NCBI RefSeq assembly: GCF_900112605.1
Contig: NZ_FOMJ01000001.1
Coordinates: 582,577-646,576 of the forward strand
Length of the DNA: 64,000 bases
Source: Thiohalospira halophila DSM 15071
GTDB taxonomy: Bacteria > Pseudomonadota > Gammaproteobacteria > Thiohalospirales > Thiohalospiraceae
Direction of reading: 5' to 3'
The notes beneath the pieces are model-generated. The model was given only the letters and a program-made list of their open reading frames with translations, had not been told where the DNA came from and searched no databases. A program made the translations under genes and the position numbers. Below are positions 784 through 32,119 of this stretch, in pieces (the first letter of the stretch is position 1; each line of letters starts with the position of its first letter).

Positions 784-1230
784 TCAATCGGCGGCAAGCC
801 GCCGGCGGACCCAGCGCAGGACGGTGCCGAGGAGCGGCAATCGCTCATAGATACCCGCCGCCGGATCCCAGTAGTCGATGTGTTCGACGATCCGGCCATC
901 CTCGCCCAGGGCCAGCCGGGAGACCCCCTCCACCGACCAGGGCGCCTTCGCCCTCCCCGGGGTAAAGGTGAAGTCCCAGCGCACATAGAGCAGCGGCGCC
1001 GCCCCGATTACCTCCTGGACGGTGAACCGGGCATCCGGCGCCTGCTCGAACATGTCGGCAAAGATCCGGCGGATGGCGGCGATCCCGACGACCTCGTTGA
1101 AGGGATCGCGGAACCGGGCCTCCTCGTCGTAGATCCGATTCAGTTGTTCCAGGCCGGCGGGGGTCAGGCCCTCGAAGAAGGTACGTATCGCCTCCCCCTC
1201 CTCCGCTCTGGCCGGACCCTGTTGCGACAT
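784..1230 (-). CDS. NTF2-like / SnoaL-family protein
   Basis: A 148-residue protein of the nuclear transport factor 2 / SnoaL-like fold. It opens with a helix-rich stretch (residues about 12-40), then the conserved RDPFNEVVG segment and an alternating beta pattern that ends in VEHIDYWD. Proteins of this fold serve as small isomerases, hydrolases or ligand-binding proteins, and no specific reaction can be read here. I chose ATG 1230 over the TTG just upstream because GAGGGGG lies at a good distance. Genes of this type usually sit beside SDR, MerR and photolyase genes in light-responsive clusters, which fits its position here. It is on the same strand as the SDR at 1542-2285, with 311 bases between them, so it may have its own promoter. 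Confidence 0.8.
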   Translation of the reverse strand: MSQQGPARAEEGEAIRTFFEGLTPAGLEQLNRIYDEEARFRDPFNEVVGIAAIRRIFADMFEQAPDARFTVQEVIGAAPLLYVRWDFTFTPGRAKAPWSVEGVSRLALGEDGRIVEHIDYWDPAAGIYERLPLLGTVLRWVRRRLAAD

Positions 1231-1541
1231 CAATACCCCCTCGGCGGGACTGGCGACCCCCCGGTCGTACCAGGGCGGCCCTCAGGCTCCCACGGCCCTG
1301 TTACATCCGGATGTAACTTCTCCACAGAAACTGTGGATAACTCTGTGGAGACTGCGTGGGAACAGCCCTCCAGCCCCCGCCATTCCGGAACTGTGCTCGA
1401 ACTGGTCACTCTGTAGCCACCCATTTTATCTATCTGATATTGTTACTCTTTTTGCAAATCCTTGATTCGCCGTTGAACAGCTCTGCGGGAGCAGGTCAAG
1501 GCCTTCCGGCGATCCCCCGACCTGTTAACAAAAGCCCCCGC
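1231..1541. other. 311-base intergenic region with palindromes, a DnaA box and an AT-rich tract
   Basis: No credible gene is present. The region holds a perfect 18-base palindrome at 1300-1317 (GTTACATCC/GGATGTAAC). Beside it is an inverted repeat, CTCCACAGA (1320-1328) with TCTGTGGAG (1342-1350), that encloses a shorter competing stem, CCACAG/CTGTGG (1322-1336). The loop side carries TGTGGATAA (1332-1340), a perfect DnaA box on the opposite strand. An AT-rich tract spans about 1420-1475 in otherwise GC-rich DNA. The region should contain the promoter of the NTF2-like gene. A 64-codon open frame on the minus strand (1230-1424) crosses these elements but has no ribosome site and no recognisable protein. 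Confidence 0.6.
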
Positions 1542-2285
1542 TCAACCCCTGTTCATGCGCCCTGTCAAGGCCAGATAGAGCCGGATCGGCAGGCAGCGCA
1601 GGATCTTCATTACGCGGGTGAACCGCTTGGGAAAGTGGATCTCGAACCCCCGCCCCATCAGGCCCGCTACCAGCGCCCTGGCTGCCTCCTCCGGCTCCAT
1701 GAGCGCCGGCATGTGGAAGGTATTCTTCGCCGTCAGCGGCGTCCGGATGAAGCCGGGATTCACCACGCGCAGGCGCAGGCCCCGGGCGCGGAACTCAGGC
1801 TCCAGGGACTCGGCCATGCTGTTCACCGCCGCCTTGCTGGCACCGTAAGGCGCCGCCCGGGGCAGCCCTCGATAGCCGGCCACACTGGCGGTGAGCACCA
1901 CCTGCCCGCCAGCGGCCATGCGCCCGAGTACCGCCTGAATGCCGTGGACCACGCCGAGATAGTTCACCTCCATGATCCGGCGGAACAGGGCCGCGTCGAA
2001 CTCCTCCAGGGTCATGGGCTGATAGTCACCGGCATTGAACAGCGCCAGGTCCAGGGGCCCCATCTCCTCGGCGATGGCCGCGGCCGTGGCCTCCATGGCC
2101 GCCGGGTCGGTGACGTCCACCGGGTAGGGATGGATGGTGCCGGCCGGGGCATCGGCGGCCAGCGCCTCCAGCCGCCCGCGATCCCGGCCACTGACTGCCA
2201 GGCGCCAGCCCTGCCGCGCCAGGCGCAGGGCGGTCTCGCGGCCCAGCCCCGAACCGGCACCCGTGATCCAGCCGAGCTCCGCCAT
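1542..2285 (-). CDS. short-chain dehydrogenase/reductase (classical SDR)
   Basis: A 247-residue classical SDR that probably reduces or oxidises a small carbonyl or alcohol with NAD(P). From the ATG at 2285 it reads MAELGWITGAGSGLGRE, giving the Rossmann glycine motif TGAGSGLG near residues 8-15. The NAG motif (ALFNAGDYQ) follows near residue 85, then the catalytic serine (VVLTASVAGYRG) and the YGASKAA tyrosine-lysine pair. The substrate is unknown. It is divergent from the MerR regulator, and their 143-base gap carries the TATAC-N5-TTGTACGT motif, so both genes are likely controlled together. The frame is open further upstream to 2462, but that part overlaps the regulator and the promoter and is not gene-like. 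Confidence 0.88.
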   Translation of the reverse strand: MAELGWITGAGSGLGRETALRLARQGWRLAVSGRDRGRLEALAADAPAGTIHPYPVDVTDPAAMEATAAAIAEEMGPLDLALFNAGDYQPMTLEEFDAALFRRIMEVNYLGVVHGIQAVLGRMAAGGQVVLTASVAGYRGLPRAAPYGASKAAVNSMAESLEPEFRARGLRLRVVNPGFIRTPLTAKNTFHMPALMEPEEAARALVAGLMGRGFEIHFPKRFTRVMKILRCLPIRLYLALTGRMNRG

Positions 2286-2370
2286 GGTCCTGCCCTCCCT
2301 TCCGAGCGATTCGCCGGTCAATTCGTGAACGGCTTCTTGTACTGGAAGAGTAGCAATTATGGCATCATTT

Positions 2371-2392
2371 ACTATACATACCTTGTACGTCA
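2371..2392. promoter_or_regulatory. candidate operator/promoter, copy 1 (TATAC-N5-TTGTACGT)
   Basis: TATACATACCTTGTACGT at 2373-2390 lies between the divergent SDR and MerR genes. The same arrangement, TATAC, five bases, TTGTACGT, recurs at 5594-5611 before the FAD oxidoreductase. ACTATA reads as a -10-like TATAGT for the SDR and as TATACA for the regulator gene, so the site would cover both promoters. A further TTGTAC lies at 2337-2342. Binding by the adjacent MerR protein is inference. Confidence 0.55.
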
Positions 2393-2428
2393 CCCCATTC
2401 ACGAACCGATCGGGCCGCGGAGCATCCC

Positions 2429-3382
2429 ATGTCCCAGGACGAACCCGGCAAGGCGCCGGCACGCGACGATGAAGGGCTCTACCCCATTCGCACGGTGGCC
2501 AGCCTCACCGGCGTGAACCCCATCACCCTGCGTGCATGGGAGCGTCGCTACGGTCTTATCCGCCCGCATCGGACGGAGAAGGGCCATCGGCTCTACACCC
2601 AGGCCGACATCGACCTCATCAATCAGGTCGTCCAGCTCCTGGAGCAGGGGATCCCCATCAGCCGGGTCCGCCACCGGCTGGAGCAGTCCACCGTCCCCGC
2701 CGAGAACGGCGAGGCTCCGGACAGTGACCCGTGGCACCTCTTCCGGCTGCGCATGCACCACGCCGTCAGCCGCTTCGACGAGGCGGCGGTGGACGCCACC
2801 TACAACGAGGCCCTGGCCCTCTACCCTATCGATACGGTCACACGCCGCCTGCTCATGCCACTGCTGCGGGAGCTCGGCGAGATCTGGCAGCAGCGCGACA
2901 GCGGCATCGCCGAAGAGCACTTCTTCGCCACCTACCTGCGCAACAAGCTCGGGGCCCGCTTCCACCATCAGACCCAGGGCAACGACGGCCCCCGACTGGT
3001 GGCCGCCTGCCTGCCCGAGGAGCGCCACGAGCTGGGGCTCATGCTCTTCGCCCTGTCGGCGGCGGCGCGCAACTACCGCGCCGTGATGTTCGGGGCCGAC
3101 ATCCCGCTGAGCCAGGTTGCCCTGGCGGGCCAGCGGGTGGAGGGCGCCGTGGGGGTCATCCTCTCCAGCTCCGTCTCGCCCAGCCGCTCGGTCCTGGAGA
3201 CCGAGCTGCCGGCCCTGGTAGCGGCCATGGAGATCCCGGTCTTCGTCGGCGGCGAGACCGCCGTCCGCCAGCACGATGCCCTGGTGCGCGCCGGGGCGAT
3301 CCCCCTGGGCAACGAGATTCCGGCTGCCCTGCGGCGACTGGAGGAGCATCTGGCCAGCGACTCCCAAGAGACGGTGGATTGA
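2429..3382 (+). CDS. MerR-family regulator with cobalamin-binding photoreceptor-type domain (LitR/CarH-like)
   Basis: A 317-residue regulator. The N-terminus (residues about 18-85) is a MerR winged helix with LTGVNPITLRAWERRYG and the basic wing TEKGHRLYTQAD. Residues about 100-310 form a B12-binding module. W153 is followed nine residues later by E163-H164, the W-x9-EH signature of CarH-type light sensors. An E198-R-H200-E-L-G203 motif takes the place of the usual DxHxxG, with H200 as the lower cobalt ligand. In the known family, adenosylcobalamin-bound protein represses in the dark and light breaks the complex. The next gene, a photolyase, overlaps its stop codon (TTGA). Its own promoter region carries the motif at 2373-2390. 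I infer light sensing from the residues and neighbours; the repressor role is untested here. Confidence 0.88.
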   Translation: MSQDEPGKAPARDDEGLYPIRTVASLTGVNPITLRAWERRYGLIRPHRTEKGHRLYTQADIDLINQVVQLLEQGIPISRVRHRLEQSTVPAENGEAPDSDPWHLFRLRMHHAVSRFDEAAVDATYNEALALYPIDTVTRRLLMPLLRELGEIWQQRDSGIAEEHFFATYLRNKLGARFHHQTQGNDGPRLVAACLPEERHELGLMLFALSAAARNYRAVMFGADIPLSQVALAGQRVEGAVGVILSSSVSPSRSVLETELPALVAAMEIPVFVGGETAVRQHDALVRAGAIPLGNEIPAALRRLEEHLASDSQETVD

Positions 3383-4806
3383 CGGACGATATCGCCCTCC
3401 TCTGGCTCCGCCACGACCTGCGTCTGGCGGACAATCCCGCGCTGGCCGCGGCTGCTGGCTACCGCCGCCTCATCCCGTTGTACATCGTCGAGGAGCCCGC
3501 CCCGCGACCCGATGGCGCGGCCGGCCGCTGGTGGCTGGAGCAGAGCCTGGACGCCCTCCACCAGGAGCTGACCCGCCTGGGCTCCGGACTGGTCTGCCGG
3601 CAGGGGGACCCGGAACGGATCCTGTCCGGGCTGGCCGCCGAGCACGGGGCCGATGTCTACTGGAACCGCCGCTACGGCCCCGAGCGGGCCCGGGACAAGC
3701 GGATCAAGGAGGCCCTGCGCGAGGCCGGCCACACCGCCCGCAGCTACCCGGGTAACCTGCTGTTCGAGCCCTGGACGGTGGCCACCGGCAGCGGGACGCC
3801 CTATCGGGTCTACACCCCCTACTGGAAGGCGGTTCGCCCGCGGCTCGGCGAGGTCGCCCCGCAACCGGCCCCGGCGGAACTCCCTCCCCTCCCGGCGGGC
3901 CTCGAAGCGGATGGCGCCCCCGCCGTAGCCGACCGGCACCCCTGGACGGCCAAGCTGGACGACCACTGGGTCCCCGGTGAGAGCGGCGCCCGCAGCCGGC
4001 TCTGCGCCTTCGCCGGCGCCCCCATGGCCGACTATCCCGAGAGCCGGGAGCGGCCCGCGCTGCTGGAGGGGACCTCGCGGCTCTCGCCCCACCTCCACTT
4101 CGGCGAGGTCTCGCCGCGCCAGGTCACGGCGGTGGCCCTGGCCTGCATCGAGGAGGGCCACCACCGCGACGGCATCGAGACCTTCCTCCAGGAGCTGGTC
4201 TGGCGGGAGTTCGCCCACCACATCCTGTTCCACTACCCGGCCACCGCCGACGAACCCATGGACCCGCGCTTTGCCGACTTCCCCTGGCGCGATGCCCCGG
4301 AGGACCTTGCCGCCTGGCAACGCGGCGAGACCGGCATCCCCCTGGTGGATGCCGGCATGCGGGAGCTCTGGGCCACCGGCTGGATGCACAATCGGGTACG
4401 GATGGTGGTCGCCTCCCTGCTGACCAAGAATCTGCTGCTGCCCTGGCAGCGCGGCGCCGAGTGGTTCGAGGACACCCTGGTGGACGCCGATCTCGCCAGC
4501 AATCGCCTGGGCTGGCAGTGGGCCGCCGGCTCCGGGGCCGATGCCGCCCCCTACTTCCGCGTCTTCAACCCGGTCCGCCAGGCCGAGCGCTTCGACCCCG
4601 ACGGCGAGTACATCGCCCGCTGGGTCCCCGAGCTGGCCCCGCTACCGGCCCGATGGCGGCGGCAGCCCTGGGCCACCCCGAGCGGCACGGCGCGGGAGGC
4701 CGGCTTCACGCCGGGAGTGACCTACCCCCACCCGCGGGTGGACCTCAAGTCCTCCCGGGAGCGGGCCCTCGCCGCCTGGCACCAGCTACCGGCCTTCAAT
4801 CGCTAG
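3379..4806 (+). CDS. phrB: deoxyribodipyrimidine photolyase (class I CPD type)
   Basis: A 475-residue light-driven DNA repair enzyme that would split cyclobutane pyrimidine dimers using FADH-. The N-terminal alpha/beta domain opens with LLWLRHDLRLADNPAL. The helical FAD domain shows TSRLSPHLHFGEVSPRQ, WREFAHHILFHYP and ELWATGWMHNR. The C-terminal motif NRLGWQWAAGSGADAAPYFR is typical of class I enzymes. The start is a TTG at 3379 that overlaps the regulator's stop in TTGA, so the two are translationally coupled; the frame is open upstream, but that region encodes the regulator. Its stop overlaps by 11 bases the end of the convergent MoaB/CinA-like gene. Co-transcription with a light-sensing regulator suits a photolyase. 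Confidence 0.95.
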   Translation: MTDDIALLWLRHDLRLADNPALAAAAGYRRLIPLYIVEEPAPRPDGAAGRWWLEQSLDALHQELTRLGSGLVCRQGDPERILSGLAAEHGADVYWNRRYGPERARDKRIKEALREAGHTARSYPGNLLFEPWTVATGSGTPYRVYTPYWKAVRPRLGEVAPQPAPAELPPLPAGLEADGAPAVADRHPWTAKLDDHWVPGESGARSRLCAFAGAPMADYPESRERPALLEGTSRLSPHLHFGEVSPRQVTAVALACIEEGHHRDGIETFLQELVWREFAHHILFHYPATADEPMDPRFADFPWRDAPEDLAAWQRGETGIPLVDAGMRELWATGWMHNRVRMVVASLLTKNLLLPWQRGAEWFEDTLVDADLASNRLGWQWAAGSGADAAPYFRVFNPVRQAERFDPDGEYIARWVPELAPLPARWRRQPWATPSGTAREAGFTPGVTYPHPRVDLKSSRERALAAWHQLPAFNR

Positions 4807-5548
4807 CCTCCGCCGGCCCCTCCAGCGGCTCCCAGCGCCCACCGCGCTCGGCCACTGCGGCCAGTAGCGCCTCCAGCGCCGCGGACTCGCCACCGCGGCC
4901 GCGACAGCCCAGCTCGATGCCGGCGCCACCGGTACTCGGCAGGCTGTAGGCGCGCACCCCGGGATGATTCGCGCGTACCGCATCCATGGGCCCGACCAGT
5001 TCGCTCTCTCCCACCCCGAAGACCCGCACGGCCACCACTCGCTCCGGCTCACCGGCCGGGAAGTCCCGAGCGAGAATGGCGTCCACCATGGGCCAGGCCA
5101 TCTCCGGGAAGCCGGGCAAGAAGTAGTGGTCATCCAGGCGGAAGCCGGGGATACCGTTGTACGGGTTGGGCTCCAGGTCGGCCCCCTCGGGCCACTGCGC
5201 CATGCGGATCCGGTTGGGCCGGACCGCCTCGCCGAAGCGCGCCTCCAGCTGGGCCGCTGCCTCGGGATGGTCCACCAGCGACCGCCCCCAGGCCGCCGCG
5301 GCCGCCGGCCGGGTGAGGTCATCCGGGGTCGCGCCGATCCCGCCGCAGACGAAGGTCGGCCGTTCGGAGGCCCGGGTGCGCTCCAGGGTTGCCCGGAGCG
5401 GCTCGGGTTCATCCCCCACCACCACGGCCTCGACCAGGGTATGACCGGCAGCGGCAACCGCGGCCCCGATGTGGGCCACGTGGCCGTCCACCCGCCGCCC
5501 GGCCAGGATCTCGTCGCCCACCACCACCAGCCCGAAAGAGATCGTCAT
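4796..5548 (-). CDS. MoaB/CinA N-terminal-domain protein
   Basis: A 250-residue protein of the molybdopterin-binding (MoaB/MogA) fold, as found in the N-terminal half of CinA. It starts MTISFGLVVVGDEILAGRR, and VCGGIGATPDDLTRPAA follows near residue 70, matching the conserved GG.GPT.DD..T loop. The C-terminal deamidase domain of full CinA is absent. In CinA the N-terminal domain is linked to ADP-ribose pyrophosphatase activity, so a nucleotide-hydrolase role is possible but not shown. ATG 5548 faces the FAD oxidoreductase across a gap of 79 bases that carries the second copy of the light-block motif. The 3' end overlaps phrB convergently by 11 bases. Confidence 0.82.
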   Translation of the reverse strand: MTISFGLVVVGDEILAGRRVDGHVAHIGAAVAAAGHTLVEAVVVGDEPEPLRATLERTRASERPTFVCGGIGATPDDLTRPAAAAAWGRSLVDHPEAAAQLEARFGEAVRPNRIRMAQWPEGADLEPNPYNGIPGFRLDDHYFLPGFPEMAWPMVDAILARDFPAGEPERVVAVRVFGVGESELVGPMDAVRANHPGVRAYSLPSTGGAGIELGCRGRGGESAALEALLAAVAERGGRWEPLEGPAEASD

Positions 5549-5572: not shown

Positions 5573-5613
5573 TTGAAAAACCGATACAATAATTATACGA
5601 AACTTGTACGTGA
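5573..5613. promoter_or_regulatory. candidate promoter and operator, copy 2 (TATAC-N5-TTGTACGT)
   Basis: TATACGAAACTTGTACGT at 5594-5611 repeats the spacing and both half-motifs of the site at 2373-2390. A possible -35 (TTTTGA at 5571-5576 or TTGAAA at 5573-5578) precedes TATACG, which could act as -10. The TTGTACGT part would then cover the transcription start. It lies 16 bases before the ATG of the FAD oxidoreductase and upstream of the MoaB/CinA-like gene on the other strand. Confidence 0.55.
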
Positions 5614-5627
5614 GCCGGGAGAGGCGC

Positions 5628-6977
5628 ATGGAAGGCAAGAACATCGCCGTCATTGGTGGCGGCATCTCGGGGCTCGGTTCAGCCTGGCTGCTCCAGCGCC
5701 ACCACAGTGTAACGCTGTACGAGCGTAATGCAGTCGCCGGCGGCCACACCCACACCGTGGACGCCCCCTCCGCCTCCGGCCCGGTGCCGGTGGATACCGG
5801 CTTCATCGTCTACAACGAGCGGAACTACCCCCATCTTACCGGGCTGTTCGCCACCCTGGGGATCGAGACCCGGCCATCGGAGATGTCCTTCTCCGCCTCG
5901 GTGGACGGCGGCCGGCTGGAGTACGCCGGCAGCGGCCTCGCTACCCTCTTCGCCCAGCGGCGCAACCTGCTCCGCCCGCGTTTCTGGGGCATGCTGCGGG
6001 ATATCCTGCGCTTCAACCGCCAGGGTCGCGCCATCCTCGCCATCGCCGACGGCCGCGGTCGCAGCCTGGGTGAATTCCTTGCAGAGAACGGCTATGGCAG
6101 CACCTTCCGGGACTACTACCTTCTACCCATGGCCGCCGCTATCTGGTCCTGCCCGGTGAGAACCATGCTCGACTTCCCCCTGGTGAGCTTCCTGCGCTTC
6201 TTCGACAACCACGGGCTGCTCCAGCTCGGCGACCGTCCCCAGTGGCGGACGGTGGTTGGCGGCGGCCGCACCTACGTCGAGCGCATCCTCACCGACCTCC
6301 GGGAGCGGCAGGGGGATGCAGCGGTCCAGACCGGCGATCCGGTGGTCCGGGTGGAGCGGGATGCCGAGGGGGTCACCCTGGTCACCGCCAATGGCTACCA
6401 CCGCCGTCATGACGAGGTGGTCCTGGCCGGCCACGCCGACGAGATGCTGCACCTTCTCGCCGATCCCTCGGCCAGTGAGAGCGCCCTGCTCGGCAGCTTC
6501 CGCTACCAGCCCAACCACGCCGTCCTGCACGGCGACCCGGCGCTGATGCCGCGTCGGCGGGCCGTCTGGTCCGCCTGGAACTACCTGGCGGACGGCACCA
6601 GCGCCGGCACCGAACGCGTCTCGGTGACCTACTGGATGAACTGCCTGCAGGGGCTCGAGTCGGCGGACCGCGACCTCTTCGTCAGCCTCAATCCGTTGCA
6701 GGAGCCGGACCCGGAGCAGGTCATCGCCCGGCGCGACTGGGACCACCCGGTCTTCGACCAGCCGGCCATGGAGGCCCAGGGCGGCATCGCCGGGCTCCAG
6801 GGGATCCATCGTACCTGGTACGCCGGGGCCTGGCTGGGCTACGGCTTCCACGAGGACGGCCTGCGCTCCGCCGTGGAGGTCGCCCGCGGCCTCGGAGTGG
6901 AGCCGCCCTGGACCCCGAGCCACGCCGAATCCCCGGTGGAGGAACCGCTGCCCATGGGCCAGCCGGAGGTCACATGA
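5628..6977 (+). CDS. FAD-dependent oxidoreductase (amine-oxidase-like, NAD(P)-binding Rossmann)
   Basis: A 449-residue flavoprotein. The N-terminus NIAVIGGGISGLGSAWLL is the dinucleotide-binding GxGxxG motif, followed by the acidic end of beta-2 (LYERN) and AGGHTHTV. Proteins of this family always travel with DUF1365 and CFA-type methyltransferase genes, and they probably modify an unsaturated or methylated fatty-acyl chain; the exact reaction is unclear. I start it at ATG 5628, with GGGAGAGG just upstream, and not at the in-frame TTG at 5604, which falls inside the operator motif. It ends in an ATGA overlap with DUF1365. It is the first gene of a seven-gene coupled run ending at 12075. Confidence 0.85.
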   Translation: MEGKNIAVIGGGISGLGSAWLLQRHHSVTLYERNAVAGGHTHTVDAPSASGPVPVDTGFIVYNERNYPHLTGLFATLGIETRPSEMSFSASVDGGRLEYAGSGLATLFAQRRNLLRPRFWGMLRDILRFNRQGRAILAIADGRGRSLGEFLAENGYGSTFRDYYLLPMAAAIWSCPVRTMLDFPLVSFLRFFDNHGLLQLGDRPQWRTVVGGGRTYVERILTDLRERQGDAAVQTGDPVVRVERDAEGVTLVTANGYHRRHDEVVLAGHADEMLHLLADPSASESALLGSFRYQPNHAVLHGDPALMPRRRAVWSAWNYLADGTSAGTERVSVTYWMNCLQGLESADRDLFVSLNPLQEPDPEQVIARRDWDHPVFDQPAMEAQGGIAGLQGIHRTWYAGAWLGYGFHEDGLRSAVEVARGLGVEPPWTPSHAESPVEEPLPMGQPEVT

Positions 6978-7738
6978 CCGACGCGGACCGAATCCTCCAC
7001 AGCCAGGTCATGCACCGGCGCACGGGCGCCGTCCGGTACCGCTTCGTCTACCGGATCTTCAGCCTCCTGGTGGATGTGGACCGGCTAAACGAACTCGACC
7101 GCCGGCTGCGCCTGTTCGGGCACAACCGCTTCCGCCTGCTGAGCCTGTACGACCGCGATTTCGGCCCCGGCGACGGCAGTCCCCTGCGCCCCTGGCTGGA
7201 GGGCCACCTGGCCGAACACGGCATCGACCTGGAGGGCGGTCCCGTCCGGCTGCTGGCCATGCCGCGGGTCCTGGGCTACCAGTTCAACCCCCTCTCGGTC
7301 TGGTACGCCTACCACCGCGACGGCACCCTGCGCGCCGTCCTCGGCGAGGTCCACAACACCTTCGGCGACCGCCACGGCTACCTGCTCCACGACGAGGGCC
7401 GCCCCCTGCCCGATCCGGTCCGGCAGTCGAAGGTGAAGGTCTTCCACGTCTCCCCCTTCATCGGCATGGACTGCGAGTACCACTTCCGCCTGACCCATCC
7501 GGGGGACGAGGTGGCGGTGGTCATCCGCCAGACCGAGGGGGGCGAACACCGGCTCACCGCCACCCAGACGGGGACCACGGCGCCGCTCACCGACCGCACC
7601 CTGGCGGCGGCGGCCCTGCGCCTTCCCCTGGTCACGCTCAAGGTCATCACCCTGATCCACTGGTGGGCCCTGCGGATCTGGTGGTCCGGAGGCCGCTTTC
7701 ACCGCCGCCCCGCGCCCCCCGAGAAGGAGGTTACCTGA
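6974..7738 (+). CDS. DUF1365 domain protein
   Basis: A 254-residue protein of the DUF1365 family. It shows the family's opening pattern (HSQVMHRRTGAVRYRFVYRIF), then RVLGYQFNPLSVWY, GEVHNTFGDRHGYLL and FHVSPFIGMDCEYHF. The biochemical function is unknown. In many proteobacteria this gene lies between an FAD oxidoreductase and a cyclopropane-synthase-like methyltransferase, as here, which points to lipid modification. The start overlaps the preceding stop (ATGA) and its own stop directly abuts the next ATG, so the three genes are almost certainly one translation unit. Confidence 0.92.
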   Translation: MTDADRILHSQVMHRRTGAVRYRFVYRIFSLLVDVDRLNELDRRLRLFGHNRFRLLSLYDRDFGPGDGSPLRPWLEGHLAEHGIDLEGGPVRLLAMPRVLGYQFNPLSVWYAYHRDGTLRAVLGEVHNTFGDRHGYLLHDEGRPLPDPVRQSKVKVFHVSPFIGMDCEYHFRLTHPGDEVAVVIRQTEGGEHRLTATQTGTTAPLTDRTLAAAALRLPLVTLKVITLIHWWALRIWWSGGRFHRRPAPPEKEVT

Positions 7739-8953
7739 ATGGATGCCGAACAGCTCCGCCCCCTGGAGGCCGGTCCCGGCCTCGCCCTGCGCCCCTGGTC
7801 CTGGCTCCTCCGGGGCCTGCACGTCGGTCGCCTGCGGGTGGACGGAGCCGGCGGGCGCGGCTTCACCGCCACCGGCGCCGAGGCCGGACCGGAGGCACAG
7901 ATCCTCCTCCATCGCCCCCTCAATCTTCTGAACCGGGTGATGCGCCGCGGAGCCATGGGCTTCGCCGAGGGCTACATGGCCGGGGAGTGGGAATCCAGCG
8001 ACCTCACCACCCTTCTCACCCTGGCCGCCCGCAACGAGGCGGCCCTGGGACGGGCCAGTGAGGGTGGTCGGCTGGCGCGCTGGCGGGAGACCCTGAGCCA
8101 TCGCACCCGGGCCAACACCCGGCGGGGGAGTCGGCGCAACATCGCCGCCCACTACGACCTGGGCAACGACTTCTACCGCCTCTGGCTCGATCCCACCATG
8201 ACCTACTCCGCCGCCCTCTACGCCCCGGGGGAGGACAACCTGGCGGCGGCCCAGCGCCACAAGTACCAGCGCCTGCTGAGGCAGCTGGACGCCCGCCCCG
8301 GCGACCACATCCTCGAGATCGGCTGCGGCTGGGGCGGCTTCGCCCTGGAGGCGGCGCGCTGCGGCTACCGCGTCACCGGCATCACCCTCTCCCGGGAGCA
8401 GCTCGCCTGGGCCCGGCGGCGGGTGGCCGAGGCCGGCCTCAGTGACCGCGTGGACCTCCAGCTGCGCGACTACCGCGACCTGGAGGGGGCCTGGGACCAC
8501 GTCGTCTCCATCGAGATGTTCGAGGCGGTGGGCGAAGCCTGGTGGCCGACCTTCTTCGGGACCGTGGGCCGCTGCCTGCGCCCCGGCGGGCGGGCGGCGC
8601 TGCAGGTCATCACCATCGACGAGTCGGTCTTCGACGATTACCGACGCGGTGCCGACTTCATCCAGCGCTACATCTTCCCCGGTGGCATGCTGCCCAGTAT
8701 CACCGCCTTCCGGGAGCGGGCCGGCGAGGCGGGCCTGCGGGTGAGCAGCCTGGACCGCTTCGGCCACGACTACGCCCGCACACTGCAGTCCTGGCACCGG
8801 CGCTTCCTGGACGTCCTGCCCCGGGTCCGGGAGCAGGGCTTTGATGACCGCTTCATCCGCATGTGGCGCTACTACCTGAGCTACTGCACCGCCGGCTTCC
8901 AGACCGGCCGCATCGACCTCATTCAGACCACCCTGGAACACCCGGATGGCTGA
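7739..8953 (+). CDS. cyclopropane-fatty-acyl-phospholipid synthase-family methyltransferase
   Basis: A 404-residue SAM-dependent methyltransferase of the CFA synthase family, which adds a methylene or methyl group across a double bond of membrane phospholipid acyl chains. An N-terminal lipid-binding domain (residues about 1-115) precedes NIAAHYDLGNDFYRLWLDPTMTYSAA. The SAM-binding loop is ILEIGCGWGGFALEAA, then VVSIEMFEAVGEAWW. Near the C-terminus YLSYCTAGFQTGRIDL holds the family's conserved cysteine region. The start abuts the DUF1365 stop and its end overlaps the MFS gene by 8 bases. In Rhodobacter a similar gene set responds to singlet oxygen and makes furan fatty acids, from memory; this copy may act similarly. 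Confidence 0.9.
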   Translation: MDAEQLRPLEAGPGLALRPWSWLLRGLHVGRLRVDGAGGRGFTATGAEAGPEAQILLHRPLNLLNRVMRRGAMGFAEGYMAGEWESSDLTTLLTLAARNEAALGRASEGGRLARWRETLSHRTRANTRRGSRRNIAAHYDLGNDFYRLWLDPTMTYSAALYAPGEDNLAAAQRHKYQRLLRQLDARPGDHILEIGCGWGGFALEAARCGYRVTGITLSREQLAWARRRVAEAGLSDRVDLQLRDYRDLEGAWDHVVSIEMFEAVGEAWWPTFFGTVGRCLRPGGRAALQVITIDESVFDDYRRGADFIQRYIFPGGMLPSITAFRERAGEAGLRVSSLDRFGHDYARTLQSWHRRFLDVLPRVREQGFDDRFIRMWRYYLSYCTAGFQTGRIDLIQTTLEHPDG

Positions 8954-10322
8954 GCGGCTCCCCCGGGGACAGCTCCTCGCCTACGGCCTGCCGGGGCTCC
9001 CCCTGGCGGTGCTGGGGTTGCCGCTCTACGTCTACCTCCCCGGCTTCTACGCCGAGGAGGTGGGGCTGGGGCTCACCCTCACCGGCGCCCTGCTGCTCAT
9101 CGCCCGGATCTGGGACATGGTCACCGACCCCGTCGTCGGCAGCCTCGGCGACCGCCTGCACCTGCCCCTGGGACGGCGGCGCGGCCTCATGCTGCTGGGT
9201 GCCCCGCTACTGCTCATCGCGGCGACGGCCCTGTTCCTGCCACCGGCTGATGCGGGCGGCGGCCATCTACTGCTCTGGAGCCTGCTCATCTACCTGGGCT
9301 GGACCCTGGTGACCCTGCCCTACACCGCCTGGGGGGCCGAGCTCTCCGACGACTACGACGAGCGCTCTCGGATCACCGGGATCCGCGAGGGGGCCGTGGT
9401 CCTGGGGACCCTGGTGGCCGCCCTGCTGCCGCCGCTGCTCGGGCGCGACGAGCCGGGGCAGGCCCTGGCCGTCCTTACCACCTTCCTGTGGCTGGCCGTG
9501 CCCCTCACCGTGGGGCTGGCGCTGTGGCGGGTCCCCGAGCCGGTGACCAGCGGCGAGCCCATCCCCTGGCGTGAGGGGCTGACACTCCTGCGGGGGAACC
9601 GGCCCTTCTTCCGGCTCCTGCTGGCCTACGCCGCCAACGGGACCGCCAACGCCCTGCCGGCGACCCTCTTCCTGCTCTTTGTCGAGCACATCATCCAGCG
9701 GCCGGACTGGACCGGCACCCTCCTCGGCCTCTACTTCGTCGCCGGGATCGCCGGGCTTCCCCTGTGGCTGGCCCTGGCCCGCCGCTGGGGCAAGCACCGC
9801 ACCTGGGCCGCCTCCATGCTCTGGGCCGCGGCCATCTTTGCCACCGTGCCGCTGCTCGGTGCGGGGGACCTGGTCGCCTTCAGCCTCATCGTCGTCCTCT
9901 CCGGCCTGAGCCTGGGGGTGGACATGGCCCTGCCCGCCTCCATCCAGGCCGACGTGGTGGACGAGGATACCGCCGCCGGCGGCGGCGGCCGGGCGGGGCT
10001 CTTCTTCGGCCTCTGGGGCATGGCGACCAAGCTCGCCCTGGCCCTGGCGGTGGGCATCGCCTTCCCGCTGCTGGACCTGGCCGGCTTCGACGGCCCCGCC
10101 GGCGAGGGTCTGCTCGCCCTGGCCCTGCTCTACGGCGGTCTGCCGGTGATCATCAAGATCACCGCCGTGGCCCTGGTCTGGGACTTCCCCGTGGACCGGA
10201 CGAGACAACACCAACTGCAAGGGAGCATCCACCATGAAACGGACCCATCGACGCCCGGGCATCCTGGCTCGGATCCGGGGGGCCTCGATCCTCGGCCTGA
10301 CCCTGCTTCTGGCCGGCTGTAG
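8946..10322 (+). CDS. MFS transporter, MelB/GPH-like type
   Basis: A 458-residue membrane carrier with about 12 hydrophobic segments. The motif RIWDMVTDPVVGSLGDR in the loop after the second segment is typical of the glycoside-pentoside-hexuronide/MFS_2 group. The substrate is unknown; its place beside lipid-modifying genes hints at lipid or lysolipid export or flipping. It overlaps the upstream methyltransferase by 8 bases. Its last 89 bases also overlap, in another frame, the start of the DUF3833 lipoprotein gene, and the tail (from about residue 429, after WDFPVDRT) is hydrophilic and proline-rich, unlike a membrane carrier. The tail may be a genuine extension or the result of a lost stop. 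Confidence 0.85.
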   Translation: MAERLPRGQLLAYGLPGLPLAVLGLPLYVYLPGFYAEEVGLGLTLTGALLLIARIWDMVTDPVVGSLGDRLHLPLGRRRGLMLLGAPLLLIAATALFLPPADAGGGHLLLWSLLIYLGWTLVTLPYTAWGAELSDDYDERSRITGIREGAVVLGTLVAALLPPLLGRDEPGQALAVLTTFLWLAVPLTVGLALWRVPEPVTSGEPIPWREGLTLLRGNRPFFRLLLAYAANGTANALPATLFLLFVEHIIQRPDWTGTLLGLYFVAGIAGLPLWLALARRWGKHRTWAASMLWAAAIFATVPLLGAGDLVAFSLIVVLSGLSLGVDMALPASIQADVVDEDTAAGGGGRAGLFFGLWGMATKLALALAVGIAFPLLDLAGFDGPAGEGLLALALLYGGLPVIIKITAVALVWDFPVDRTRQHQLQGSIHHETDPSTPGHPGSDPGGLDPRPDPASGRL

Positions 10323-10800
10323 CAGCATGGACATCAACGACTTCCGCGACACCCAGCCGGAGCTGGACATCCACGACTACTTCCAGGGGGAGCTGCGCGC
10401 CTGGGGCATCGTGGAGAACCGCTCCGGCGTGGCCACCCGCCAGTTCACCGTGGACATGGTGGGTCGCCTGGAGGGGGACACCCTGGTCCTGGAGGAGGAC
10501 TTCGAGTACGCCGACGGCGAGACCGACCGCCGCGTCTGGCGGATCCGCAAGGAGGGCGAGCACCGTTACGTGGGCACCGCCGGGGACGTCATCGGCGAGG
10601 CGCGCGGCGAGGCGCGCGGCCGGGCCTTCCACTGGGAGTACAAGGTGGACCTGAAGGTGGGCGACTCCACCTACCGCGTGGCCTTCGACGACTGGATGTA
10701 CCGCCAGGAGGACGACGTGGTCATCAACCGCGCCACCATCACCAAGTGGGGCTTCGAGGTGGCCCGGGTCACCGTGGTCTTCCAGAAGAGGGACTCTTGA
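10234..10800 (+). CDS. DUF3833 lipoprotein
   Basis: A 188-residue envelope lipoprotein. The signal peptide (residues 1-28) ends in LLLAGC, a good lipobox, so the mature protein starts at the cysteine near residue 29. The rest matches DUF3833, with DIHDYFQGELRAWGIVENRSG, EEDFEYADGETDRRVWRI and DDWMYRQEDDVVINRA. DUF3833 proteins accompany CFA-like and DUF1365 genes, but their activity is unknown; a lipocalin-like or lipid-chaperone role is only a guess. GGGAG stands before ATG 10234, which lies inside the end of the MFS gene. Its stop shares a base with the next start (TGATG). Confidence 0.9.
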   Translation: MKRTHRRPGILARIRGASILGLTLLLAGCSSMDINDFRDTQPELDIHDYFQGELRAWGIVENRSGVATRQFTVDMVGRLEGDTLVLEEDFEYADGETDRRVWRIRKEGEHRYVGTAGDVIGEARGEARGRAFHWEYKVDLKVGDSTYRVAFDDWMYRQEDDVVINRATITKWGFEVARVTVVFQKRDS

Positions 10801-11375
10801 TGAGCACCCGGCGCATCGGCCTGGCCGGCCTGCTCCTGGCCCTCGCCCTCCTGCCGTTCGGCCCCGCCGCCGCGGAGGAGGTCAAGGTCAAGGACATCAC
10901 CTTCGCCACCGAACGGGGCGACCTGGCCCTGCGCGGGGCCGGGATCCTCACCTACCGGCTGGTCTTCGACGTCTACGCCGCGGCCCTCTACCTGCCTCCG
11001 GAGGCCGCCTCATCGGCGGTCCTGGCCACGGAGACGCCCAAGCGGTTGGAGCTGGCCTACCGCTACGAGATCGAGCAGGAGGACTTCGCCCGGGCCGCCT
11101 GGACCGTGCTCTCCGAGCAGTACGAACCCGCGGTGCTGGAGGCGCTGAAACCGAGCGTCGAGGCCCTCCACGACGCCTTCACCGCCGTGGAACCCGGCGA
11201 CCGCTACGCCCTCATCTGGGAACCGGGGGCCGAGGCACCCCTGCGCCTGACCCTCAACGGCGAGACCCGCTATCGCGGCGACAATGCCGACCTGGCCCGC
11301 GCCTACTTCGGGATCTGGCTCTCCGCCAACGAACCCATCGACGCCGGGCTGCGCCGGAAGCTGCTGGATGAGTGA
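10800..11375 (+). CDS. chalcone-isomerase-like periplasmic protein
   Basis: A 191-residue secreted protein with a signal peptide (about residues 1-24, cleavage after PAAA). The mature part matches the chalcone-isomerase-like domain: TYRLVFDVYAAALYLP, then RLELAYRYEIEQEDFARAAW and YLALIWEP-type beta strands with GIWLSANEPID at the end. Bacterial members probably bind fatty acids and are not plant-type chalcone isomerases; this agrees with the lipid-modifying neighbours. The start overlaps the DUF3833 stop (TGATG), and the next gene starts inside its last codons. Confidence 0.85.
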   Translation: MSTRRIGLAGLLLALALLPFGPAAAEEVKVKDITFATERGDLALRGAGILTYRLVFDVYAAALYLPPEAASSAVLATETPKRLELAYRYEIEQEDFARAAWTVLSEQYEPAVLEALKPSVEALHDAFTAVEPGDRYALIWEPGAEAPLRLTLNGETRYRGDNADLARAYFGIWLSANEPIDAGLRRKLLDE

Positions 11376-12075
11376 TCTCTCGTTGCCCTCGCTTCCCGAG
11401 GGCTACCGGGCCGTGGTGGTCGGGGCTAGCGGCGGCCTGGGGGCGGCCTTCCTGGAGCGGCTGGTCACCGACTCGCGCTGCGGCGAGGCCATCGGCCTGG
11501 CCCGGGACTCCGACCCGCCGCTGGAACTCACCGACGAGGCGACCATCGCGGCCGCTGCCGAGGCGGTGGGCGGACCGGTGGACTGTCTCATCGTGGCCAC
11601 GGGGGCGCTGACCCTGGACGGCCACGGGCCGGAGAAGGCCCTGAACCGCCTGGACCCGGCCGTGCTGGCCCGCCAGTTCGCCATCAACGCCACCGGGCCG
11701 GCCCTGGTACTCAAGCACTTCGCCCCGCTCCTGCCGCGCCGGGGCCGCTCCATCGCCGCGGCCCTCTCCGCCCGGGTGGGCTCCATCGGCGACAACCAGA
11801 CCGGCGGCTGGTACAGCTACCGGGCCGCCAAGGCGGCGCTGAACCAGCTCTGGCATACCGCCGCCCTGGAGATCCGGCGCCGCCACCCGGAGGCCATCCT
11901 GGCCACCCTCCAGCCGGGTACGGTGGATACCGACCTCACCGCCCCCTACCGGGGCAACCGCCCGGCCCTCTCCCCGCGCGCGGCCGCTGCCCTCCTCCTG
12001 GAGACCCTGGACGGCCTGGAACCGACCGACAGCGGCGGCTTCTTCGACTTCGCCGGGAACGCCCTTCCCTGGTAA
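11368..12075 (+). CDS. short-chain dehydrogenase/reductase (CsgA/C-factor-like SDR)
   Basis: A 235-residue SDR and the last gene of the run. The glycine motif is VVVGASGGLGAAF (residues about 17-29). The central region has FAINATGPALVLKHF, the serine segment AALSARVGSIGDN and the YSYRAAKAALNQ tyrosine-lysine pair, ending with QPGTVDTDLT. Such short SDRs are often named C-factor or cell-cell signalling proteins; the substrate is unknown. It starts at ATG 11368, eight bases inside the chalcone-isomerase-like gene. Only three bases separate its stop from the convergent glk stop, and no clear terminator hairpin is visible between them. Confidence 0.85.
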   Translation: MSDLSLPSLPEGYRAVVVGASGGLGAAFLERLVTDSRCGEAIGLARDSDPPLELTDEATIAAAAEAVGGPVDCLIVATGALTLDGHGPEKALNRLDPAVLARQFAINATGPALVLKHFAPLLPRRGRSIAAALSARVGSIGDNQTGGWYSYRAAKAALNQLWHTAALEIRRRHPEAILATLQPGTVDTDLTAPYRGNRPALSPRAAAALLLETLDGLEPTDSGGFFDFAGNALPW

Positions 12076-30337: not shown

Positions 30338-32119
30338 ATGACAAGCGCCTTCTCGCCCCCTCCCCCGGCCCTCGGTCTCGCCGGTTTCAGCGGTTCCGGC
30401 AAGACGACCCTCCTGGAGGCGGTCATCGCCTACCTGGCAGCCGCGGGCTGGCGGCTGGGGGTCCTCAAGGCGAGCCACCACGACGTCGACCCCGATCGCC
30501 CGGGCAAGGACAGCTACCGCCTGCGCCATGCCGGGGCGGCCGTCACCCAGCTCGCCGGCCCCCGCCGCTGGAGCCTCTTCGTGGAGCCCCCGCCGGAAGA
30601 GTCCCCGCCCGATCTGCCCGCGGCACTCGCCCGCTTCGCCGGCTACGAGCTGGACCTGGTCCTGGTGGAGGGCTACCGCGAGGCCGAGTTCCCCCGCATC
30701 GAGGTCCATCGCGCCGAGCGCGGCGGTCCCTGGCTCTTTCCCGACCATCCCGGCATCATTGCCGTTGCCTGCGACGAGGCCCCACCGGCCGGCGCACCGC
30801 CGTTTCTGGCGCTGTCCGAACCCGCCGCCGTCGCGCAATTCATCATCGACCACTACCCCACCCTGGAGGGACCTATGACCCGTGACGACGCCTGCTTCCA
30901 GCCCGGCCCCGACCTGCTGCCCGTGGTCGAGGCGCGCCGACGGATCCTCGCCGCGGCCGGCCCGGTCACGGGTACGGAGATGGTCGACCTGCGCGCCGGC
31001 CTTGGCCGGGTCCTGGCGCAGACCGTGGCGGCGGCCGAGCCGGTCCCGGGCTTCGACAATTCCGCCATGGATGGCTACGGGCTCCGCGCCGCCGACGCCG
31101 GCGAATCCCTCCGACTGGTCGGACACAGCCTGGCCGGCAGCCCCTACGCCGGGAACATCGGGCCCGGCGAGGCCGTCCGGATCATGACCGGGGCGCCGGT
31201 CCCCGAGGGCGTCAACACCGTGGTGATGCAGGAGCACGTCACCGCCGACGAGACGACCGTCCGCATCGACAAGCAGCCCACCGAGGGCGACAACATCCGT
31301 CGTGCCGGAGAAGACCTGACTGCCGGTGAGACCGTCCTGGAACCGGGCCGTCGCCTGCGCCCGGCCGACCTGGGCCTGCTGGCCTCCGTGGGGGTCAGCC
31401 AGGTGCGAGTCCACCGCCGCCCCCGGGTCGCCTTCTTCTCCACCGGCGACGAGCTACGCGGCGTGGGCGAGCCGCTGGAGCACGGCACCATCCGCGACAG
31501 CAACCGCTACACCCTGCACGCGCTGCTGGAGCGCGCCGGGGTCGAGGTCCACGACCTGGGCGTGGTCCGCGACGACCTGGCCGCCACCGAGACCGCCCTG
31601 GCCGAGGCGGCGGCCATGGCCGATGCCGTCATCACCACCGGTGGCGCCTCGGTGGGAACCGCCGACCACATCCACACCGCCCTGGCCAACCGGGGTGAGG
31701 TCGCCTTCTGGCGCATCGCCATGAAGCCGGGCAAGCCGCTGGCATTCGGCCACGTGGGGGATGCGCTCTTCTTCGGCCTGCCGGGGAACCCGGTCTCGGC
31801 CATGGCGACCTTCCTCCAGTTCGCCGCCCCGGCCCTGGCGGTCCAGGCCGGGGAGCCGCCGGCGGAGCCGCGCACCCTGCGCCTGCCGGTGGCCGAGGCC
31901 GAGCCCTTCACCAAGGCGGCGGGGCGGACGGAGTTCCAGCGCGGCCAGCTGGAGCCCACCGCCGATGGCAGCCTGGCGGTCCGCCCCACCGGCCCCCAGG
32001 GCTCCCACATCCTCCGCTCCATGAGCCTGGCGGACTGCCTGGTCATCCTCCCCGCCGAGTCGGAGGGCGCCAGCCCCGGGGAGCTGGTCGAGGTCCAGCC
32101 GCTGACTACCGACGCCTGA
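30338..32119 (+). CDS. MobB-MoeA fusion (molybdenum cofactor biosynthesis)
   Basis: A 593-residue fusion. Residues 1-175 are MobB, a GTP-binding adaptor with P-loop GFSGSGKTTLLEAV and LVLVEGYREAEFPRIEV. Residues 180-593 are MoeA, which inserts molybdate into adenylated molybdopterin: PVPGFDNSAMDGYGLRAAD, RIMTGAPVPEGVNTVV, STGDEL, TTGGASVGTADH and GLPGNPVSAMATF. The junction keeps GGAGGG (30865-30870) directly before an in-frame ATG at 30875, so MoeA may also be made alone. Fusions of these two are known. A MoaB-like domain protein lies at 4796-5548, but no other cofactor gene is in the window. Confidence 0.94.
   Translation: MTSAFSPPPPALGLAGFSGSGKTTLLEAVIAYLAAAGWRLGVLKASHHDVDPDRPGKDSYRLRHAGAAVTQLAGPRRWSLFVEPPPEESPPDLPAALARFAGYELDLVLVEGYREAEFPRIEVHRAERGGPWLFPDHPGIIAVACDEAPPAGAPPFLALSEPAAVAQFIIDHYPTLEGPMTRDDACFQPGPDLLPVVEARRRILAAAGPVTGTEMVDLRAGLGRVLAQTVAAAEPVPGFDNSAMDGYGLRAADAGESLRLVGHSLAGSPYAGNIGPGEAVRIMTGAPVPEGVNTVVMQEHVTADETTVRIDKQPTEGDNIRRAGEDLTAGETVLEPGRRLRPADLGLLASVGVSQVRVHRRPRVAFFSTGDELRGVGEPLEHGTIRDSNRYTLHALLERAGVEVHDLGVVRDDLAATETALAEAAAMADAVITTGGASVGTADHIHTALANRGEVAFWRIAMKPGKPLAFGHVGDALFFGLPGNPVSAMATFLQFAAPALAVQAGEPPAEPRTLRLPVAEAEPFTKAAGRTEFQRGQLEPTADGSLAVRPTGPQGSHILRSMSLADCLVILPAESEGASPGELVEVQPLTTDA

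Follow-up and report, generated by a model that had tools for sequence, protein, structure and literature searches.

A run of seven genes at 5628-12075 of a 64,000-nucleotide stretch of the Thiohalospira halophila DSM 15071 genome (hereafter the window; contig NZ_FOMJ01000001.1) raises the question of which lipid its enzymes make and what signal switches it on. The window has a G+C content of 69.7% and comes from a 2.69-Mb genome that is 99.99% complete. An earlier note, made from the sequence alone, had seen here a lipid-modification operon of the kind that responds to light or singlet oxygen, with methylated or furan fatty acids as its likely product. Our analysis of the operon, its surroundings and its counterparts in other genomes largely agrees with that proposal. 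We consider it probable that the operon serves to make furan fatty acids within membrane phospholipids, with some of its genes providing accessory lipid handling, under B12-dependent light control by a regulator of the CarH/LitR type. Most of the operon is already explained by published work on furan fatty acids and on LitR. What is new is the type of regulator and its link to the operators, a glutamine signature in the methyltransferase, the likeness of the carrier to MFSD2A and the putative transport module.

The operon genes all lie on the plus strand and encode, in order, a flavin adenine dinucleotide (FAD) oxidoreductase, a DUF1365 protein, a methyltransferase of the CMAS family, a major facilitator superfamily (MFS) carrier, a DUF3833 lipoprotein, a chalcone-isomerase-like protein (CHI) and a short-chain dehydrogenase/reductase (SDR). 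The Pfam matches and open reading frame coordinates bear out these families, as first proposed, and each gene overlaps or abuts the next. In gene order, the junctions are a 4-nt overlap, no gap, an 8-nt overlap, an 89-nt overlap, a 1-nt overlap (TGATG) and an 8-nt overlap. Given such tight junctions, a single transcript with translational coupling is likely. Six of the seven genes have the codon composition of real genes. Within the 89-nt overlap between the carrier and lipoprotein genes (10234-10322), the final ~30 residues of the carrier (HHETDPSTPGHPGS...) resemble an out-of-frame tail, and this overlap may be genuine or may result from a late frameshift.

The first three genes correspond to an experimentally defined pathway. 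In Rhodobacter sphaeroides, UfaM methylates cis-vaccenate, UfaD (RSP1091, an NAD/FAD-type protein) desaturates the methylated product, and UfaO (RSP1090), which contains DUF1365, adds O2 and thereby forms the furan ring, a product that it also made in a cell-free assay (PMC7380195). The same study found that homologues of UfaM, UfaD and UfaO are enough for 9M5-FuFA in R. sphaeroides and that those of R. palustris do the same reactions. Halomonas sp. YLGW01, a halophilic gammaproteobacterium, carries ufaM, ufaD and ufaO consecutively, and its UfaM yields the methylated product 11-methyloctadec-12-enoate in Escherichia coli, according to the available part of PMC12089945. The T. halophila operon likewise encodes a UfaD-type FAD oxidoreductase, a DUF1365 protein and a CMAS-type methyltransferase together, which is the gene set of the furan pathway. 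It is through this correspondence that the original proposal of a furan fatty acid operon held up. The accompanying statement that three members have no known activity is outdated for DUF1365, as UfaO inserts O2 for the furan ring (PMC7380195).

The DUF1365 protein was modelled with AlphaFold (predicted local distance difference test, pLDDT, 94; predicted template modelling score, pTM, 0.91) as a barrel with a long C-terminal helix, and the residues conserved fully or almost fully include R98, G101, P106, E125, N128, Y136, K155, H158, S160 and Y169. Compared with solved structures, the model gave no Foldseek match at an E-value of 0.001, and its VIA-align Z-scores were at most 6.8, to nitrobindin-type barrels; therefore, no known oxygenase fold can be claimed for it. 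The BfaA/BfaB pathway to 10-methyl fatty acids was also considered and rejected. We take BfaA to be defined as an FAD_binding_4-type reductase beside a CMAS enzyme, and the FAD protein of the operon matches Amino_oxidase/NAD_binding_8, not FAD_binding_4.

Cfa, the cyclopropane synthase of E. coli, binds bicarbonate through Glu239, His266 and Tyr317 (PMC11387697). The operon methyltransferase keeps the Glu and Tyr of this site and has Gln at the position of His266. Its active-site signature is A-E-E-A-Q-I-Y, compared with C-G-E-H-H-I-Y in Cfa, with the changes H266Q, C139A, G236E and H240A, whereas the other CMAS enzyme of the same genome (on contig C2) has the full Cfa signature. This distinction extends well beyond T. 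halophila: of the 115 cluster enzymes in which the His266 column is occupied, 113 have Gln, and 34 of 42 non-cluster enzymes have His. Several of the eight non-cluster enzymes without His resemble cluster-type enzymes that lie apart from their cluster. In a FastTree phylogeny, the operon enzyme falls inside a 79-tip UfaM-type clade (support 0.997), which holds all but one of the sampled cluster enzymes as well as five Rhodobacterales enzymes. Four of these five are encoded beside a photolyase gene (loci L241-L243 and L245), and we liken them to RSP_2143-2144, listed as photolyase/methyltransferase neighbours in PMC5507510. Three other CMAS enzymes of those Rhodobacterales genomes (L246-L248) have the Cfa signature. 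With a bicarbonate ligand missing, it is plausible that the methyl cation would end as a branched olefin and not as a ring. In the T. halophila genome, the canonical Cfa gene (L003, 2364-3491) overlaps by 4 nt the gene after it, which encodes a predicted FAD-dependent oxidoreductase that by eye is geranylgeranyl-reductase-like.

The earlier note had proposed comparing operon content in related genomes, and this comparison supports the operon as a unit. We sampled 274 genomes from the class and inspected 51 DUF1365 loci, namely that of the window and 50 from other gammaproteobacteria. DUF1365 is encoded in 77 of the 274 genomes and DUF3833 in 41, and in 37 of these 41 the two occur together (Fisher p 7e-20, 274 genomes). 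The FAD oxidoreductase and CMAS genes adjoin DUF1365 in 50 of the 51 loci, and the six-family set FAD-DUF1365-CMAS-MFS-DUF3833-CHI recurs on one strand within 6.5 kb at 12 other loci. This gene arrangement is not due to chance. Related runs differ in composition and order: in Azoarcus sp. KH32C, the run is MerR, FAD oxidoreductase, DUF1365, CFA-type methyltransferase, chalcone isomerase-like, MFS, DUF3833, SDR and NTF2-like, and in Salinivibrio it is MerR, photolyase, NTF2, SDR, FAD, DUF1365, CFA-type, DUF2878, one further gene and DUF3833. Azospirillum thermophilum has FAD-DUF1365-methyltransferase-MFS-DUF3833 adjoining a sigma factor and ChrR, and several Rhodobacterales (for example, L202, L204, L209 and L214) have FAD-DUF1365-MFS-DUF3833-SDR beside sigma/ChrR, an order that fits RSP1091-1087 of R. 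sphaeroides. No DUF3833 was found in 11 relatives from the same family, so the operon was either acquired within this genus or has disappeared from the lineages surrounding it. Many gammaproteobacterial loci (L112-L123, such as L114, L116 and L117) have, a few kb away from the FAD-DUF1365-CMAS core, a second, Cfa-like CMAS enzyme, with H and F in its signature, and a DUF2878 gene, which form a different accessory set.

As for the signal, the functional unit extends to a divergent upstream block at 784-4806 that the earlier note had missed; this block encodes an NTF2/SnoaL-like protein, an SDR, a LitR-type regulator and a photolyase. The nearest solved relatives of the regulator are structures of Thermus CarH (3whp and 5c8d, E about 1e-33). 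It keeps W-x9-EH and E-x-H-x-x-G, the residues that hold adenosylcobalamin in CarH, its MerR and B12-binding_2 domains score above cut-off, and a cob(I)alamin adenosyltransferase is present in the genome. Five LitR-like proteins from other loci (L082, L089, L091, L097 and L161) have no B12 ligand motif where the alignment would place it, and others keep the motifs; B12-competent and B12-blind LitRs may thus control the same type of operon.

The regulator and the operon also share a DNA signal. The pattern TRTACR-N5-TRTACR occurs at exactly two sites in the entire genome, one before the regulator gene and one before the operon; shuffled sequence yields a mean of 0.01 sites per window. Since the pattern was derived from these two promoter regions themselves, the independent test is provided by other genomes. 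In other gammaproteobacterial loci (1.09 Mb), the promoter zones of the FAD and LitR genes cover 2.2% of the sequence and hold 8 of the 11 sites (p 9e-12); 0.64 Mb of ChrR-type loci had none. CarH binds tandem 11-bp direct repeats of the form nnnnTnnACAn (PMC9304148), and each predicted T. halophila operator contains two or three tandem 11-bp repeats, whose half-sites are imperfect at single bases compared with those of CarH.

The earlier note had also placed the operon in a photo-oxidative context. A link to light remains likely, through the CarH/LitR-type regulator and the shared predicted operator. The Rhodobacter-like part does not: no photosynthetic reaction centre protein was found in the genome, which led us to reject a photosynthetic context, and the ChrR-type cupin (PF12973) had no match there, with the family detected in control genomes. 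B12-dependent light derepression is therefore the best-supported reading and more likely than ChrR control.

Genes 4-6 would act in the envelope. The family model of the carrier names GPH sugar symporters (GPH/MelB), but its nearest solved relatives are structures of MFSD2A, a lysophosphatidylcholine symporter (E 1.6e-29, compared with 2.3e-7 for melibiose permease). It keeps both Asp residues of the WDxxTDPxVG cation site and a C-domain Lys aligned to MFSD2A. Judging from these matches and aligned residues, it may be a lysophospholipid symporter of the MFSD2A type. The DUF3833 protein has the lipobox LLLAGC with Ser at +2, and its model (pLDDT 95.4) is a calycin-like barrel whose Z-scores are 13-15 against nitrobindins, BFA1 and the CpeS bilin lyase, with fatty-acid-binding proteins at about 9. 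The chalcone-like protein begins with a hydrophobic segment ending in AAAEE, by inspection a signal peptide, and has no sequence relative in the PDB at an E-value of 1. These two envelope proteins are genes 5 and 6 and not the end of the operon, where they had initially been placed. It is plausible, from the sequences and models, that genes 4-6 move or bind lipid in the envelope. More tentatively, the carrier, the outer-membrane calycin-barrel lipoprotein and the periplasmic chalcone-like protein might together form a dedicated route, controlled by the B12 photoreceptor and dispensable for synthesis, by which furan or photo-oxidised (lyso)phospholipids cross the envelope.

Several known systems resemble the operon. 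R. sphaeroides RSP1091-1087 with ufaM (RSP2144) and R. palustris RPA2571-2569 (PMC7380195) share with it the UfaD, UfaO and UfaM homologues. The R. sphaeroides operon also has an SDR gene (RSP1087) and a lipoprotein gene (RSP1088) in common with it, and gene order in Rhodobacterales relatives identifies RSP1089 as the MFS carrier; the products of RSP1089, 1088 and 1087 are 402, 186 and 245 aa long (PMC7380195). Annotation calls the P. syringae counterpart of RSP1088 a lipoprotein and the counterparts of RSP1087 SDRs (PMC5507510). Unlike the T. halophila operon, the Rhodobacter genes are under sigma-E/ChrR control with ufaM elsewhere beside phrB; T. halophila has ufaM as the third gene of the operon, an additional chalcone-isomerase-like gene, a second SDR and a regulator of the LitR/CarH type. 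Another is the PplR/PmlR regulon of Pseudomonas putida and P. mendocina, for which we draw on the available part of PMC9758184. There, LitR adjoins a photolyase, and the FAD oxidoreductase, ufaM and SDR genes form a light-induced polycistron of overlapping genes; in P. mendocina, the LitR-linked ufaM cluster is strongly light-induced. However, this LitR is of class II, without B12 binding, and is partnered by a short LOV protein; the operator is TGTACA-N12-TGTACA, compared with the N5-spaced 11-bp repeats of T. halophila, and MFS_2 is not mentioned in that part of the source. The plasmid cluster of Azoarcus sp. KH32C (L160) brings together a MerR protein with the B12 motif, the core and the chalcone-like, MFS, DUF3833, SDR and NTF2-like genes, but its accessory gene order is different and its annotated stretch lists no photolyase. 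The CarH proteins of Thermus and Myxococcus (5c8d-5c8f) share the MerR-B12 architecture (with the Rossmann B12 domain of the T. halophila regulator scoring below cut-off), the ligand residues and the 11-bp direct-repeat operator; known CarH proteins differ in chiefly controlling carotenoid genes (PMC9304148 and the available part of PMC9758184).

Taken together, these data suggest the following mechanism. In the dark, the regulator charged with adenosylcobalamin would sit on the 11-bp repeats before its own gene, which is followed by photolyase, and before the operon, repressing both. Light would break the Co-C bond, as published for CarH, and release the repression. The UfaM-type enzyme would then methylate a cis-vaccenoyl chain and, lacking the full bicarbonate base, give a methyl-branched olefin, which UfaD would convert to a conjugated diene and UfaO (DUF1365) would close to a furan ring by O2 insertion. 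Handling of the modified or oxidised (lyso)lipid in the envelope, by transport or binding, would fall to the MFSD2A-like carrier, the barrel-shaped lipoprotein and the secreted chalcone-like protein.

Several points weigh against this mechanism. The furan product of T. halophila is predicted from its genes, and the fatty acid substrate is an assumption. The tree contains photolyase-adjacent Rhodobacterales enzymes as stand-ins for R. sphaeroides UfaM (RSP2144), as the Rhodobacterales loci were reached via a Paracoccus DUF1365 query and R. sphaeroides itself was not among the matches. On the enzymatic side, genes 1-3 could instead produce methyl-branched or diene lipids without a furan, with DUF1365 doing another job, such as the signalling proposed for RSP_1090. 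In support, singlet-oxygen-dependent proteolysis of ChrR is reported to need RSP_1091/1090 (PMC3818230), DUF1365 occurs widely, and the DUF1365 model matches solved structures weakly. We nevertheless regard this as improbable: genes 1 and 2 are kept even though the genome has no ChrR-type cupin as a target, UfaO gave the furan in the cell-free assay, and the three-gene core is nearly invariant. Less probable still is an operon for cyclopropane fatty acids with an ordinary Cfa as its methyltransferase. The enzyme belongs to the Pfam CMAS family and is a clear homologue of E. coli Cfa, yet its active-site signature, with four substitutions, and its membership in the UfaM-type clade led us to reject the cyclopropane synthase reading, and the genome has a separate canonical Cfa.

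Control by light through B12 faces objections of its own. The B12-binding Rossmann domain of the regulator (PF02310) scores E 0.0035, below the Pfam cut-off, and B12 binding may therefore have been lost as in the class II LitR of Pseudomonas. The repeats of the window end in ACG or start with G where CarH sites read T..ACA, and scans for sigma-70-like promoters and terminators near both operators found nothing. A B12-blind, class II-like regulator that relies on a different photosensor (a short LOV protein, for example) or answers a cue other than light would accord with the weak Rossmann domain, with the class II LitR and short LOV protein described at the same kind of operon in the available part of PMC9758184, and with the five LitR-like proteins that lack the ligand motif. 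We hold it to be unlikely, given the intact W-x9-EH and E-x-H-x-x-G motifs and the adenosyltransferase. Finally, deleting RSP1087, 1088 or 1089 in R. sphaeroides left the fatty acid profile unchanged (PMC7380195), which marks these carrier, lipoprotein and SDR genes as accessory and leaves the lipid transport that the earlier note had suggested a tentative reading; indirectly in its favour are the MFSD2A-like carrier and the lipid-binding type of barrel, and movement of lipid by genes 4-6 would escape total fatty acid profiling. The same deletions, together with the GPH/MelB family names, could mean that the MFS_2, DUF3833 and chalcone-like genes are unrelated to the furan lipid and encode, for example, a MelB-type sugar transporter and unrelated envelope proteins. 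We doubt this considerably: the genes repeatedly accompany the core in gamma-, beta- and alphaproteobacteria, under LitR and ChrR control alike, and among solved structures the carrier is far nearer to MFSD2A than to MelB. Furan fatty acid synthesis with accessory lipid handling, under CarH/LitR-type B12 light control, thus remains the explanation that we favour.

Table 1. Features of the operon and its upstream block, with positions in the window.
Feature	Position	Strand	Evidence
Gene 1, UfaD-like FAD oxidoreductase, predicted desaturase of methyl-branched acyl chain	5628..6977	+	Pfam Amino_oxidase/NAD_binding_8
Gene 2, UfaO-like DUF1365 protein, predicted furan-ring-closing oxygenase	6974..7738	+	PF07103, 265 bits
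Gene 3, UfaM-type S-adenosylmethionine methyltransferase, not cyclopropane synthase	7739..8953	+	PF02353 (CMAS), 286 bits
Gene 4, MFS_2 cation symporter, MFSD2A-like, predicted lysophospholipid/lipid carrier	8946..10322	+	MFS_2, 275 bits
Gene 5, DUF3833 lipoprotein, predicted outer-membrane, calycin-like barrel	10234..10800	+	PF12915, 228 bits; lipobox
Gene 6, Chalcone_3 (chalcone-isomerase-like) protein with signal peptide	10800..11375	+	PF16036, 87 bits
Gene 7, PRK09009-like SDR	11368..12075	+	NF006532, 152.7 bits, below its cut-off
SnoaL/NTF2-like protein, recurrent cluster member	784..1233	-	PF12680; 42% identity to Azoarcus cluster NTF2-like gene
SDR, counterpart of the usual cluster SDR (RSP1087 type), divergent from regulator	1542..2285	-	45% identity over 243 aa to Azoarcus cluster SDR
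CarH/LitR-type MerR-B12 regulator	2429..3382	+	MerR_1 and B12-binding_2
DNA photolyase	3379..4806	+	PF00875/PF03441; 4-nt overlap with regulator gene
Predicted CarH/LitR operator of the operon, GATACA-N5-TATACG-N5-TGTACG, 11-bp direct repeats	5583..5610	+	Includes pattern site 5594-5610
Second predicted operator, TATACA-N5-TGTACG, before regulator gene	2373..2389	+	Only other genome site

Among the neighbours, the photolyase has a DNA photolyase, 4u63, as its top solved relative (E 1.1e-126). Two SDRs are encoded in this region, and the terminal PRK09009-like one belongs to another subfamily than the usual cluster SDR. The Azoarcus cluster SDR scores 184 bits against the upstream SDR and 30 bits against the terminal one, and the terminal SDR was therefore rejected as the RSP1087 counterpart. 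Between the photolyase gene and the operon lies a molybdopterin-binding (MoCF, CinA-like) gene on the minus strand (4796-5548), which was not found in the recurrent cluster at the annotated loci elsewhere. Elsewhere in the window, a MobB-MoeA fusion of molybdenum cofactor synthesis is encoded in one reading frame on the plus strand (30338-32119).

Furan fatty acids are oxidant-scavenging lipids. Our analysis places in their pathway a widespread cluster that is usually annotated as unknown genes and a 'cyclopropane synthase', and Gln in place of the bicarbonate-binding His may serve to tell UfaM-type from Cfa enzymes in annotation. A further suggestion is that, in non-phototrophs, antioxidant lipids are under the control of B12-type LitR photoreceptors. 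Should the module of carrier and lipoprotein indeed move furan or oxidised lipids, the accessory genes of the cluster would gain a testable function.

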